59,816 bases of DNA from positions 1 to 59,816 of the forward strand of contig JAFYPF010000023.1 of assembly GCA_017547655.1 (NCBI GenBank), given 5' to 3'. Positions 14,959 through 21,881 of the stretch are shown piece by piece (positions within the stretch are counted from its first letter, which is position 1; every line of letters starts with the position of its first letter). The notes beneath the pieces were generated by a model. The model worked only from the letters and a program-made list of their open reading frames with translations, did no database searches and was not told the DNA's origin. The stretch comes from Clostridia bacterium. GTDB lineage: Bacteria > Bacillota > Clostridia > Oscillospirales > CAG-272. Position numbers and translations under genes: made by a program.

Positions 14959-15346
14959 AATAAATAATCCTCGCAACGGAGACACTTCGTAAAGAAGTAG
15001 TCTCCGTTTTTCTATATGAAAAGAAAATGACACTTTCAATTTTTGAAAGTGTCATAGTGGGTTACATACTTTGAGATGGGTAAATACCTACCGAAAAAAG
15101 GAATGTATTATTTCGGCAGGTAAAATGATATATCTCTTACGAGATATGATATACGGCGAAAGCCGTATGATATATTTCCACTTCGTGAAAATATGATATA
15201 ATATCCGTTCCTCAATATGCCGCAGGCATATATCATCGCTCGCAGAGCGATATCATATCGAAGATATATCACCCGTTCCGCATAGGAACGGATATCATTG
15301 GTGCACCTTCCTTACGGAGGGTGCACCAAAGCGAGGATTATTTATT
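14959..15346. mobile_element. MITE-like element of tandem hairpins with 16-bp terminal inverted repeats
   Basis: Perfect 16-bp inverted ends AATAAATAATCCTCGC (14959-14974) and its complement (15331-15346) bound a 388-bp non-coding element. Inside are a terminator-like hairpin AACGGAGAC/GTCTCCGTT (14975-15008), a hairpin around 15027-15055 with stem TGACACTTTCAA, an imperfect one at 15088-15120, and an array of small hairpins (15125-15327) with loops such as TTAC, GAAA, GCA and GAA. The hairpins are separated by ATGATAT-type spacers. The right end overlaps two bases of the trpB stop codon. No ORF is present. Confidence 0.7.
15125..15327. repeat. array of about eight small hairpins
   Basis: Readable stems include TATCTC/GAGATA, ATACGGC/GCCGTAT, ATATGCC/GGCATAT, ATCGCTC/GAGCGAT, ATATC/GATAT, CCGTTCC/GGAACGG and GGTGCACC/GGTGCACC. 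An outer pairing ATATCCGTTCC (15201-15211) with GGAACGGATAT could enclose several. Stem sequences differ but the spacers are shared. Confidence 0.7.
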
Positions 15347-16565
15347 ATCTGATGCCGTAATTATCAATAACGTAATCCATATCCTTATCGCCTCTTCCCG
15401 AGAGGTTAATAAGAATTGAACCCTTATCCATCTTCTTTGCAAGCTTCATACCGTACGCAACGGCGTGAGCACTTTCAATGGCAGGAATAATACCTTCAAG
15501 TCTTGACAACGCAAAGAATGCATCTATCGTCTCTTCGTCGTCAATAACATCGTAAACTACTCTTCCGATGTCGTGCAAGAACGCATGTTCGGGACCTGAC
15601 GAAGGATAGTCGAGTCCGCTTGCTACGGAATATACGGGAGCAGGATCGCCATTTTCATCCTTTAGCATAATACTGTTGAATCCGTGCATAATTCCCTCTG
15701 TTCCGTATTTCAAGCTTGCTGCGTGGTCACCCAATTTAGGACCTCTTCCAAGAGGTTCAACGCCGTATATATCAACGGGATCGTTCAAAAAGCCTGCAAA
15801 AAGCCCTGCCGCATTACTTCCGCCACCGACACAAGCAACAATAGAGCTCGGCAAGTGTCCTGTCATTTCAACAAACTGTTCTCTTGCTTCAATACCTACA
15901 ATGCTCTGAAAATCACGAACCATCATCGGGAACGGATGCGGTCCCAACACAGAACCGATACAATAAATAGAATCCTTGTATTCCTTGCTGTATGCATCAA
16001 AAGCAGCATCAACAGCCTCTTTCAGCGTCTGAAGTCCGTGGGTTACTTCAACAACGTTTGCGCCGAGTATCTTCATTCTCGCAACGTTGGGAGCCTGTTT
16101 TTTAATATCAACAGAACCCATATATATATCACATTCAAGTCCGAAATACGCCGCCGCAGTTGCAAGCGCAACACCGTGCTGTCACGCACCCGTCTCTGCA
16201 ATCACTTTCTTCTTGCCCATATATTTTGCAAGCAAAGCTTCGCCCATACAGTGATTAAGCTTGTGTGCGCCGGAGTGGTTCAAATCTTCACGCTTCGCAT
16301 AAAGCTGTACCTTCCCCCCGAGCGCATCTGAAAGTCTTTCAAGATGTGTTACGGGTGTAGGTCTGCCCTGAAATTCTTTTCTGATTCGTCTGAGCTCTGC
16401 AATAAATTTTCTCGACTGACAAATGGAGTAATACGCCTCTGTAATTTCAGCCATTGCCGCCTTTAATTTATCGTCAATATATACACCGCCGTATTTTCCG
16501 AAGTAACCGTTCTCATCAGGATAGTTGTTAAAATAAGTATCAAAATCAATTCCGTTAAATTTCAT
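15345..16565 (-). pseudogene. trpB: tryptophan synthase beta chain, interrupted by in-frame TGA
   Basis: TrpB joins indole and serine to make tryptophan with PLP. The reading frame is intact over 406 codons except for TGA at 16182-16184 (codon 128). The first 127 residues include the PLP-lysine motif HSGAHKLN (K102). The remainder starts [22 protein letters not shown] and runs to the normal end [11 protein letters not shown]. The stop replaces the second glycine of the conserved ETGAGQHG loop, one base from GGA. It is probably a nonsense-mutated gene. A sequencing error or a strain variant is possible. No trpA or other trp gene is nearby. A tryptophan T-box lies upstream. Confidence 0.85.
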
Positions 16566-16690: not shown

Positions 16691-16725
16691 AAAAATCCCC
16701 GACAGAACACATATTCTGTCAAGGA
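16691..16725 (-). terminator. T-box terminator hairpin
   Basis: Minus strand: CTTGACAGAA pairs with TTCTGTCGGGG around TATGTG, followed by ATTTTTTG. Confidence 0.8.
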
Positions 16726-16983
16726 CGAATAAACATCTTATCCGCGTTGCCACCTTGATTCACGGTAAATACACCGCACACCTTTGCAAGATACAAACAT
16801 ATCTCCGACTTCTTACGGGAGTCATATTTCCGTCGCAGAATACTCGGCATATTAAATCGCTTTTGACTGCGCCCTCCGCGGTCCATTTAATGCTCTGTTT
16901 TTCATCGGGCTCTCATCCTTCCCCGACTCTCTGTGGAATCATAAACATTTTTATCTCCGCATCAACGGTTTATTTATAACTAT
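16691..16983 (-). promoter_or_regulatory. T-box leader, tryptophan type, upstream of trpB
   Basis: The leader has a Stem I with AGAGAGTCGG and GATGAGAGCCCGATG, a specifier region reading AAATGGACC (codon TGG, Trp), and the T-box AAGGTGGCAACGCGG (16742-16756). The TGGC in it would pair with a tRNA end whose discriminator is G, as in tRNA-Trp. A terminator hairpin (ACAGAA/TTCTGT, 16691-16725) with TTTTTT follows. Uncharged tRNA-Trp would allow read-through into trpB. Confidence 0.9.
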
Positions 16984-17032: not shown

Positions 17033-17067
17033 AAAAAGAACTGCTGCATTTTTGCAACAGTTCCATC
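17033..17067 (-). terminator. terminator of the cobalamin operon
   Basis: Minus strand: GGAACTGTTGCA, loop AAAA, TGCAGCAGTTC, then seven T's. Confidence 0.9.
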
Positions 17068-17076
17068 TTTGTACTT

Positions 17077-17589
17077 TTAGCGCGAATAACGTTCTGCAAG
17101 TCTCATCGCCTTAATCAGAGGAACAATAAGTATTCCGCATATTAAATTGCTTAACCCGTGTATAGCATCAAACGGTATTCCCGATACAATCCAAGCTATC
17201 GTCTGTTCAAATGTAAATCCAAACATTATCGCTTGAGCCGGCGCATATAACGTTCCGTACAGAAAACCGTGCAATGCGCACACAACCATATAAACTACGG
17301 GCACTGCTTTTGACGGCATATTCTTCGGCAAAAGCATTACAGCCCCCCAAAGAACAGTCCATATATAAATATATGGCACCCACCATATATTAAACCCATA
17401 AAACAAACCGAATACAACCACAAATATGTATATCGGGTACAGTGCTTTTCTTCTGTAAACAACCGTTATAGCAACAATAAACACGCCTATAAGGTGGATA
17501 TTCGGAAACACTTCCATAGCAAGCTTCGATGCAAACATCAAGCTGCCAAGCATACCGAAAATCGCTATCTCTTTTATGTTCAGCTTCAT
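17077..17589 (-). CDS. ECF transporter S component, probably cobalamin (CbrT-like)
   Basis: S components are small membrane proteins that bind a vitamin and dock to a shared ECF ATPase/T module. This one is 170 aa with about six hydrophobic helices. It opens with MKLNIKEIAIFGMLGSLMFASKLAME, typical of S components. Co-transcription with a DUF4430 lipoprotein (its ATG overlaps that gene's TAA) behind a cobalamin riboswitch points to B12 or a corrinoid as substrate. EcfA, EcfA' and EcfT are not in the window and must come from elsewhere. Family membership is fairly sure. The substrate is inference from the riboswitch. Confidence 0.85.
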   Translation of the reverse strand: MKLNIKEIAIFGMLGSLMFASKLAMEVFPNIHLIGVFIVAITVVYRRKALYPIYIFVVVFGLFYGFNIWWVPYIYIWTVLWGAVMLLPKNMPSKAVPVVYMVVCALHGFLYGTLYAPAQAIMFGFTFEQTIAWIVSGIPFDAIHGLSNLICGILIVPLIKAMRLAERYSR

Positions 17590-18113
17590 TATTTGGAAAC
17601 CTTAAAAGAATATACCTTTCCGGCTTCAACATTCGTCATATCAACACCCGTCATCGCATACTCGCCGTCAACGTAAAAGCCCCAATACGTCTTATCTTTG
17701 TCGTAATCGGCAACTATTCCGTTAACCTCTTTTACGTACAAGCCGTAAGGTCCTGCGTCTCCCTTGATAAGTCCAAGCTCAAGCAACGCTTCGCCTACAA
17801 CATCTTTGTCGGTGTTAATAACAAACTGCGTTACGTTACCCTCAATGTCCACAACGTTAAAATCAAACCTGTTTTTACCTTCTCCGAGAACTCTCGCTCC
17901 CTCGTCAGCGTTTGATTCCGCAGAACCGCCGTTTTCATTCGACATTTCTCCGTCACCATTGTTTTCACCCATAGGGTTTTCGGTGAATTCGGCTTTCATC
18001 TCCTCGTTTCCGCCTGCATCATTGCTGCAACCGATTGTCATAAGTGCCATAGCCGCTATAAGCACTGCGCAAAGGATTACAGACAACGCTTTTTTTAACT
18101 GTCTTGTTGTCAT
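17589..18113 (-). CDS. DUF4430 (transcobalamin-like) lipoprotein
   Basis: The 174-aa protein has a signal peptide with TIGC ending at C29 as the probable lipidation site, a Glu/Asn/Gly-rich linker (about 30-75) and a C-terminal DUF4430 domain (about 80-172) with GEALLELGLI, GLYVKEVNGI, KTYWGFYVDGE and MTGVDMTNVEAG. DUF4430 is related to the C-terminal domain of transcobalamin and intrinsic factor. Lying directly under a cobalamin riboswitch, it probably captures B12 at the surface and passes it to the S component. ATG 18113 is chosen for the AAGGAG at 18121-18126. Confidence 0.85.
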   Translation of the reverse strand: MTTRQLKKALSVILCAVLIAAMALMTIGCSNDAGGNEEMKAEFTENPMGENNGDGEMSNENGGSAESNADEGARVLGEGKNRFDFNVVDIEGNVTQFVINTDKDVVGEALLELGLIKGDAGPYGLYVKEVNGIVADYDKDKTYWGFYVDGEYAMTGVDMTNVEAGKVYSFKVSK

Positions 18114-18189
18114 AATCTTTCTCCTTAAAAATATAATTTTTTCTTTACATTCCATCTGTTCCGGCCCTCGCGGAATCTTTTATGAAATG

Positions 18190-18358
18190 ATTTATGCAAA
18201 ATTCGGATATACCGACTTCGATGCATATTTTTCTGTCTTCTCAAGCATATTGCTCAATGACATTTTCTCCGAAAAGCGGCTTCGGATAAGAAAAATATCT
18301 CTTTCGCATCATACGGCGACGGGCTCGTGTAGGATTTTCACCTACTTCCCCAAATAAG
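18190..18358 (-). promoter_or_regulatory. cobalamin riboswitch
   Basis: On the minus strand the core GGGGAAGTAGGTGAAAATCC (18331-18350) is followed by TACACGAGCCCGTCGCCGT. Near the 3' end is the B12-box-like GAAGTCGGTATATCCGAA (about 18203-18220), then TTTTGCAT. A hairpin TTCCG/CGGAA with loop CGAGGGC follows near 18160-18178 and may be the kissing-loop partner. No clear terminator follows, so control of translation is possible. B12 would repress the operon. Confidence 0.9.
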
Positions 18359-18367
18359 CACACACTT

Positions 18368-18396
18368 ATAATACACCCATACAAATATTTTGTCAA
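18368..18396 (-). promoter_or_regulatory. sigma-A promoter of the cobalamin operon
   Basis: Minus strand: -35 TTGACA (18391-18396), 17 bases, -10 TATTAT (18368-18373). The riboswitch begins about 10 bases downstream. Confidence 0.85.
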
Positions 18397-21071: not shown

Positions 21072-21881
21072 ATGGCTGACAACAAATCAAGCTGTCTCGG
21101 TTCTCTCGGCAACAAGGAAAATGTTTGCATTGACACAAACCGTATCCTTGACTCCTGCAGAGATAAAGACTGCTTCGAAGATGTAAAAGTCTTTCTCAAT
21201 GCCTATGGCAGAGAAATTATCGAAAACGCAACAAGCGTTAGAGCAAAATCCACAAAAATCCTTGCCGCAAACATTAACGTCGAGCCCGTTCAGTTCAACA
21301 GAGGCTTCTATCAGATTTACATCAAATACTACGTAAAAGTAGTTTGCGAGGCTTGTATCGGCATGAGCAGAAGCCGTGAATTCGAGGGTCTTGCCGTTTG
21401 TGAAAAGAACGTTATACTCTACGGAAGCGAGGGTAACGTTAGTATTTTCAAAAGCGAAATGGGACTCGCAAACACCCTTTCTTGCGGCTGCAACACAACA
21501 ATGAGCACAAATCTGCCCACAGTTGCCGTTGAAGTTATCGATCCTGTTGTTTTAAACGCAAAAATCGCAGAGCCCAGCCAATGCTGCTGTTGTTGCTGCT
21601 GTACTGCCGACGACGTTCCCGAAGCTTTGAGTGAATTATTCGGCGGAGGCCTCGAAGAAACTAACGGCAATAAAAATCTTTACGTTTCGCTCGGCTTCTT
21701 CTCGGTTATACGAATCGAACGCCCCGGACAGTATATCGTATCCGCAACAGAGTTTAGCGTTCCCGACAAGGAATGTGTTATGACACAGCCCGACGACCCT
21801 TGTCAGGCATTTGCTAAAATGGCGTTCCCCATTAACGAATTCAGTCCCCCCTCGTTAACCGCCAACAAGCGCTGTCAGTAA
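21072..21881 (+). CDS. cysteine-rich protein with a run of seven cysteines
   Basis: Unrecognised 269-aa soluble protein with no signal peptide or membrane helix. It has about 20 cysteines, including CIDTNRILDSCRDKDCFEDV near the start, LSCGCN, and seven consecutive cysteines (171-177) in a short loop, then DEC and DDPCQ near the end. The two flanking halves look beta-rich. Cys-rich proteins of this kind are often cross-linked in spore coats, and a weak sporulation-type promoter lies upstream, but that role is inference. GGAGG at 21057-21061 supports the ATG. Its codon use looks like its neighbours'. Confidence 0.8.
   Translation: MADNKSSCLGSLGNKENVCIDTNRILDSCRDKDCFEDVKVFLNAYGREIIENATSVRAKSTKILAANINVEPVQFNRGFYQIYIKYYVKVVCEACIGMSRSREFEGLAVCEKNVILYGSEGNVSIFKSEMGLANTLSCGCNTTMSTNLPTVAVEVIDPVVLNAKIAEPSQCCCCCCCTADDVPEALSELFGGGLEETNGNKNLYVSLGFFSVIRIERPGQYIVSATEFSVPDKECVMTQPDDPCQAFAKMAFPINEFSPPSLTANKRCQ

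Follow-up and report, generated by a model that had tools for sequence, protein, structure and literature searches.

The minus strand of the window, as we call the whole stretch of 59,816 nucleotides analyzed here, carries a B12-type unit, flanked on one side by trpB and on the other by a gene for what is, by eye, a UvrD/PcrA-like helicase. Computation shows that this unit joins a cobalamin riboswitch to a DUF4430-domain lipoprotein and an S component homologous to CbrT, that the two genes are widely paired in other genomes of gut Clostridia, and that the pair stands in a B12 context. It is probably a two-gene, B12-regulated corrinoid-uptake operon, in which the lipoprotein would catch corrinoid for the CbrT-type S component. 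The riboswitch and pairing surveys reported below support the preliminary description of this DNA in its reading of the unit as a B12-regulated, corrinoid-related pair.

Organization of the locus

The unit comprises the following features.

18368..18396, minus strand: promoter-like site TTGACA-17-TATTAT (11/12 consensus match; weak alone)
18185..18390, minus strand: cobalamin riboswitch aptamer RF00174 (45.1 bits, gathering 31.5, E 4e-8)
18159..18175, minus strand: hairpin UUCCG-CGAGGGC-CGGAA, just 3' of the aptamer
18121..18126, minus strand: ribosome-binding site AAGGAG, read from the sequence, seven bases before the ATG at 18113
17589..18113, minus strand: lipoprotein gene, 174 aa, lipobox TIGC with Cys29 (open reading frame, profiles, alignment)
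17601-17798, minus strand: DUF4430 domain (PF14478), C-terminal in the lipoprotein
17077..17589, minus strand: CbrT-like ECF S-component gene, 170 aa (open reading frame and homology)
17037..17064, minus strand: terminator-like hairpin of 12 pairs with T run, after the S-component gene

The lipoprotein gene probably starts at the ATG at 18113, with AAGGAG upstream; the longest frame would begin at 18155. Its stop and the start of the S-component gene form TAATG, with one base (17589) common to both, an overlap that the preliminary description had read correctly. The same description had set the limits of the unit at 17589..18396, a range that holds the lipoprotein side and leaves the S component (17589-17077) outside. 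Because the terminator-like hairpin (17064-17037) comes after the S-component gene, the unit seems to consist of two genes. The promoter, described earlier as a consensus one, does match at 11/12 positions (18396-18368), but promoter-like sites were no commoner in the scan than in shuffled sequences (4 vs 4.8), so its position is what backs it.

The adjoining DNA offers several observations of its own. An in-frame TGA interrupts trpB (15345-16565, minus strand) at a conserved glycine in the AETGAGQHG region and may be a sequencing error, a polymorphism or the mark of a broken gene. Upstream of trpB, behind a promoter-like site matching at 12/12 positions, lies a T-box leader (16718-16974, minus strand) that scores 90.1 bits, just under the gathering threshold of 93. 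A Gut-1 RNA (RF01706; 15225-15300, minus strand) stands between trpB and tRNA-Arg; two related loci (L042, L046) also have Gut-1 RNA right after the S component, in both orientations, with one of the two copies below gathering in each. On the plus strand, a 269-aa protein (21072-21881) contains a seven-cysteine run and gave no Pfam match at E<=1e-5.

The riboswitch and its leader

The cobalamin riboswitch of the preliminary description is borne out by a score well above the gathering threshold of RF00174, and the element at 18185-18390 is the sole RF00174 match of the assembled own genome. The hairpin that follows the aptamer belongs to a motif (stem CYG/CGG, loop CGAGNGC) present in 36 of 107 upstream regions and found once on the reverse strand. 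Its two outer stem pairs covary beyond shuffles (31/35 vs 22 and 25/35 vs 15), both these values and the motif counts being uncorrected for kinship. The position of the hairpin at 18159-18175 fits the P13/L13 regulatory hairpin of cobalamin riboswitches, in which a hairpin so placed supplies L13 for the kissing loop with L5. Folded alone, the leader showed nothing beyond shuffles (z -0.87). Since the scan found no minus-strand terminator-like site between the aptamer and the start codon, control of translation appears more plausible than termination.

The S component is homologous to CbrT

A Pfam search of the S component of the window returned zero matches up to E 1, and the NCBIfam search yielded a noise-level match only (17.9 bits vs a cut-off of 162). 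Searched alone against the PDB with phmmer, the divergent protein matched 6fnp_A (E 1.7e-4). Profile A1, built from 30 S-component members including that of the window, matched the same chain over profile positions 4-174 (E 1.7e-19) and no other PDB sequence at E<=1. The homology thus covers most of the length of the protein and points to CbrT alone among S components of known structure, in agreement with the earlier suggestion of a CbrT-type S component. Since length and match fit, we identify 6fnp chain A (182 aa) as CbrT; the 6FNP entry is deposited as ECF-CbrT, a transporter of cobalamin and cobinamide (PMC5997447). It is on this match that the label "ECF-type" rests, as the S component is without a Pfam match. 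The family-invariant residues D141, H144 and N148 are also present in CbrT in the A1 alignment, and Type II S components bear only a distant likeness to A1. An S component for another vitamin was considered and rejected, CbrT being the only PDB match of the family profile at E<=1.

Scanning one genome per species gave at least 588 matches to the family. The members searched carry no family name, either in Pfam (n=2: the window and the plasmid locus L160) or in NCBIfam (n=3: these two and L072).

The lipoprotein carries a DUF4430 domain

As the preliminary description had proposed, the first gene encodes a lipoprotein with a DUF4430 domain: the lipobox TIGC precedes PF14478, which scores 33.5 bits against a curated cut-off of 23.8 (E 6e-8). 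DUF4430 is the only Pfam domain of the protein, in which the signal peptide and linker leave no further room. The lipobox rule was passed by 72 of the 77 lipoproteins of the named loci introduced below, among the matches listed.

The earlier claim of kinship with transcobalamin was upheld in part. Profile A2, made from 21 lipoproteins including that of the window, found 3u7z (RUMGNA_00854) as its best PDB match (E 1e-25), an entry titled "putative metal binding protein". The next match was a weak one to transcobalamin-1 (4kki, presumably the human protein; E 0.0027, i-Evalue 0.0093), whose alignment spans a segment with G-x-Y, YW, GE and G common to both. A second DUF4430 profile, A7, which drew on 17 domains from the same order, chosen among those with stronger scores, did not recover transcobalamin from the PDB. 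The two kinds of profile are themselves alike (A4 vs A7, hhalign E 8e-6). By sequence, then, the link between the lipoprotein and transcobalamin is weak; it rests also on a published fold analysis (PMC1796856). In the part of the open literature covered, we found no corrinoid-binding test of a bacterial DUF4430 lipoprotein.

The pair is conserved in other genomes

The neighborhood of the pair was surveyed in two sets of genomes, which overlap by at least one locus (L063, G001:C17), and both surveys recovered the arrangement that the preliminary description had proposed to look for. The relatives' survey covered 59 genomes (the own genome and 58 relatives) and gave 32 S matches in 31 genomes and 64 DUF4430 matches in 46. 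A same-strand DUF4430 gene lies upstream of 26 of the 32 S matches, within 72 bases in 25 of them and at 489 bases in G010. Among the rest, L042 and L052 have upstream a DUF4430-like lipoprotein that falls below the family cut-off and aligns with the others, and the upstream protein of L059 resembles a DUF4430 lipoprotein by eye. In L043 and L051 the S gene stands without an adjacent lipoprotein; for the remaining unpaired match (G058:C11) the flanking DNA was left out.

In the one-genome-per-species scan, 80 named loci were taken from the at least 588 S matches (profiles A3 and A4 used 65 and 64 of them, respectively, plus the window). Among the matches listed, a lipoprotein is encoded directly upstream in 77 of the 80, or in 77 of the 78 that have upstream sequence, since L103 and L126, two of the three exceptions, start right at the end of a contig. 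The third, L095, has an S gene without a lipoprotein beside it and a RACo-type gene upstream. The spacing is tight: 69 of the 77 lipoproteins lie within five bases either way of the S gene, among the matches listed. Clustering of open reading frames of at least 100 aa in the flanks (up to 4 kb on each side) of the 80 loci revealed no other neighbor family in more than 5/80 among the matches listed, the commonest being metH (5/80), with metF among several at 4.

Plasmids yielded a single instance. Across 72,556 plasmid records searched at E<=0.01, we obtained one S match and one lipoprotein match, adjacent in one record (L160; Subdoligranulum variabile, OY725838.1). An AdoCbl riboswitch (RF01482, scoring 55.3 bits against a gathering threshold of 50) precedes this pair; a RACo-type corrinoid activator is encoded upstream and, on the other strand, a PocR-domain regulator downstream.

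DUF4430 proteins also occur in a second kind of locus. Of the 38 DUF4430 matches unpaired with this S component, 12 lie directly upstream of a CbiQ-family gene. In G043, G048 and G034, RF00174 heads a cluster encoding a DUF4430 protein, EcfT and fused ATPases, the last checked with Pfam in G043 and G034. The DUF4430 protein is a lipoprotein by eye in G043 and G048 and N-terminally anchored in G034. The clusters of G043 and G034 also hold another S component (PF12822). In G048 and G034 there are, besides, genes for large surface proteins in which Big_2 or SLH domains occur together with toroid-like stretches that score below the Pfam cut-off. Together with one in G018, these make up four larger B12-type loci with DUF4430 proteins and an ECF module (L147-L150, for G043, G048, G034 and G018).

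Cobalamin-class riboswitches precede most related pairs

RF00174 was found upstream of 17 of the 32 S matches in the relatives' survey, 16 of them above gathering. Of the 80 named loci, 50 were tested, with matches assigned by genome, strand and contig coordinates. Among the matches listed, RF00174 lies upstream in 40/50, above gathering in 34 and below it in six, at 379-906 bases from the S start.

Of 14 relative loci in which RF00174 was missing, nine carry instead a strongly conserved, AdoCbl-II-like element. Six of the nine elements match AdoCbl-II (RF01689) below gathering (26.4-32.5 vs 36.5 bits), and the other three align with these six. In the alignment of nine sequences, 99% of cells are paired, compared with at most 47% in slid versions, and the covariation score is 0.33 vs <=0.11, the structure scored being one that this alignment itself had yielded. 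R1, a model built of the element, adds one named locus (L101) among the matches listed and also has a match ahead of the separate DUF4430 gene in G031 (L153); its match in L028 is the same element as in L049. The riboswitch class assignment is not clean in G012 (L006) and G007 (L022), because R1 and RF00174 match the same stretches there. Weak R1 matches to L098 (21 bits, E 0.035) and to the riboswitch of the window (13.4 bits, E 0.9) were left uncounted. At L037-L040, L042, L046, L047, L049, L052, L101 and L153, the AdoCbl-II-like variant, below gathering where scored, precedes either the pair or its lipoprotein.

Nine of the 50 named loci showed no cobalamin-class riboswitch, among the matches listed. 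Two of these (L064, L072) have the pair directly behind metH, one (L095) stands behind the RACo-type gene, and for six we found no B12 link of any kind. Seven of the 50 are therefore without an RF00174, AdoCbl-II-like or AdoCbl riboswitch or metH, again among the matches listed. In the relatives' survey, a cobalamin-class riboswitch was not found for 6 of the 32 S matches, one of the six being G058:C11, which was left out.

The preliminary description had held that association with unrelated riboswitches would tell against it. Most homologues lie behind cobalamin-class riboswitches, and a scan of 14 loci without RF00174 (10 named, 4 relative) found only tRNA and GA-cis at gathering level and no other riboswitch family, so an unrelated riboswitch was rejected. 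A more permissive scan (E<=1) of eight of these named loci returned no member of the cobalamin clan; for L095 the scan was the one at gathering level.

B12 economy and ECF module of the host genomes

The own assembly is 84.6% complete and 1.39 Mb in size. It encodes a MetH-type protein, as a fragment below the curated cut-off, and the glutamate-mutase genes for methylaspartate mutase S and GlmL, above their cut-offs. Searches of the assembled genome found no CbiC and no BtuF-type Peripla_BP_2 protein (PF01497) that would mark a BtuFCD system. CbiC matches occurred in 0/31 genomes that have the S component and in 5/28 that do not (p 0.02, uncorrected for kinship).

An EcfT match is present in 53 of the 59 genomes and in 26 of the 31 with the S component, among them G002 and G004 of the same genus; two of four congeners have one, and G034 has its match only through its other, dedicated locus. 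The five S-component genomes in which no EcfT was found are the own genome, G001, G003 (97% complete), G014 and G046, listed as 70-97% complete drafts. Nor was an EcfA2 orthologue found in the own genome, where the best match reached 37%. In G002 and G004 the module genes form a block, ecfA-ecfA-ecfT-truA, with the ATPases and truA named by eye. A search with this block and its neighbors returned no match in G001, and in G000 and G003 nothing longer than stretches of 43-60 bases. We regard missing assembly as a likelier cause of this result than loss.

Proposed mechanism and alternative explanations

In the proposed mechanism, the riboswitch would permit expression of the pair when corrinoid is scarce. 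The lipid-anchored lone transcobalamin-beta-type domain would then probably bind corrinoid at the outer membrane face, and either raise its local concentration for the S component or pass it on. The membrane S component, being of the CbrT type, would bind cobalamin or cobinamide and, as in known families, import B12, powered by an ECF module (EcfA-EcfA'-EcfT) that is shared and has its genes elsewhere. We tentatively extend this reading to a minimal intrinsic-factor-like relay in gut Clostridia, a proposal that we hold with some doubt: corrinoid might pass from a lone anchored domain without a toroid to a CbrT-type S component, and this might be a main way in which many uncultured gut bacteria obtain B12, under three cobalamin riboswitch families. 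If so, the S side of that route would be one that the Pfam and NCBIfam models searched do not name.

The CbrT relative has no obligatory need of a lipoprotein, for transport of B12 by ECF-CbrT alone was seen in E. coli and in liposomes (PMC5997447). The lipoprotein might serve a corrinoid-importing S component as a docking, stabilizing or regulatory partner and not as a ligand receptor, a role that would suit the high affinity with which the solitary S component CbrT binds cobalamin (PMC5997447), and likewise a beta-type domain that stands alone, missing the alpha/alpha toroid by which transcobalamin sandwiches B12 (PMC1796856). We consider this unlikely, as the residues common with transcobalamin-1 fall in the domain that contacts B12 in transcobalamin (PMC1796856); moreover, the two cleaved fragments of intrinsic factor are reported still to bind cobalamin and form a complex, a statement on both fragments with no word on the beta fragment by itself (PMC6257451). 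A little less likely still is the same architecture with another main ligand, such as cobinamide, another cobamide or a cobalt species. ECF-CbrT does import cobinamide as well as cobalamin (PMC5997447), and the title of 3u7z speaks of metal binding, but cobalamin-class riboswitches of three Rfam families (one below gathering) point to B12 coenzymes, as do the metH, metF and RACo neighbors in a few loci, and free cobalt would be of little use in genomes without CbiC.

It seems improbable that the S component transports by itself and dispenses with an ECF module, as is predicted for BtuM, a solitary transporter. The 5/31 S-component genomes without an EcfT match, the own genome included, and the failure to find an EcfA2 orthologue in the latter would agree with it; however, EcfT is present in the other 26, G002 and G004 among them, the five are incomplete drafts, and solitary CbrT gave no growth of an E. 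coli transport mutant (PMC5997447). Hardly credible is a chance neighborhood of two genes with a common promoter and no common function, for which we found no supporting point, and against which stands the retention of the pair in 77/78 named loci beside other neighbor families at no more than 5/80 (among the matches listed). Capture of corrinoid by the lipoprotein for the CbrT-type S component remains the reading we prefer, and the pair is small enough for direct testing. Gut organisms compete for B12, which many of these Clostridia apparently cannot synthesize (CbiC in 5/59 genomes).

Comparison with known systems

The preliminary description had found no match to a fully described system; that view is not supported. 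Burroughs et al. predicted in 2007 that bacterial transcobalamin-like domains scavenge B12 (PMC1796856), CbrT is described (PMC5997447), and a Lacticaseibacillus lipoprotein has been annotated as part of a putative cobalamin ECF transporter (PMC9963975). The idea is thus not new, and the operon is a further member of a largely predicted kind, in which the role of the lipoprotein is putative.

A B12-binding surface lipoprotein of gut Bacteroides goes by the name BtuG. The lipoprotein described here would resemble such proteins, which bind B12 for an importer, in function only; unlike it, they belong to Gram-negative outer-membrane systems (PMC6143338, PMC8941943). BtuFCD or CbrT orthologues are reported for nearly half of the B12 auxotroph variants among gut genomes (PMC6593275).

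On the side of the S component, the nearest system is ECF-CbrT of Lactobacillus delbrueckii (6FNP), to whose S component ours is homologous over nearly the full length (PMC5997447). In L. delbrueckii several S components use one common ECF module, and the gene cluster reads nrdJ-cbrS-cbrT-pduO (PMC5997447), in which cbrS may encode the same lipoprotein. Unlike ECF-CbrT, the unit described here consists of two genes behind a riboswitch, its transport function is predicted and its S component is divergent. A lipoprotein of Lacticaseibacillus rhamnosus is likewise assigned to a cobalamin ECF transporter, by an annotation name alone in the part of that source cited ("Additional lipoprotein component of putative cobalamin ECF transporter"); a DUF4430 gene near rtpR is a separate entry there (PMC9963975).

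On the side of the lipoprotein, the closest counterparts are the bacterial transcobalamin-like SLBB proteins, which also have a secreted domain of the transcobalamin-beta type (PMC1796856). These belong to CbiO/CbiQ operons and often carry an alpha/alpha toroid (PMC1796856), whereas here a lone domain stands beside a solitary S component. The predicted scavengers were found in organisms usually without key steps of B12 synthesis and in operons with CbiO and CbiQ (PMC1796856), an arrangement that our CbiQ-type loci resemble. The same analysis predicted that animals took the transcobalamin domain from low-GC Gram-positives (PMC1796856). If the lipoprotein binds corrinoid, bacteria and animals would have in common both the domain and its use as a catcher of B12 outside the cell, as Burroughs et al. 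envisaged.
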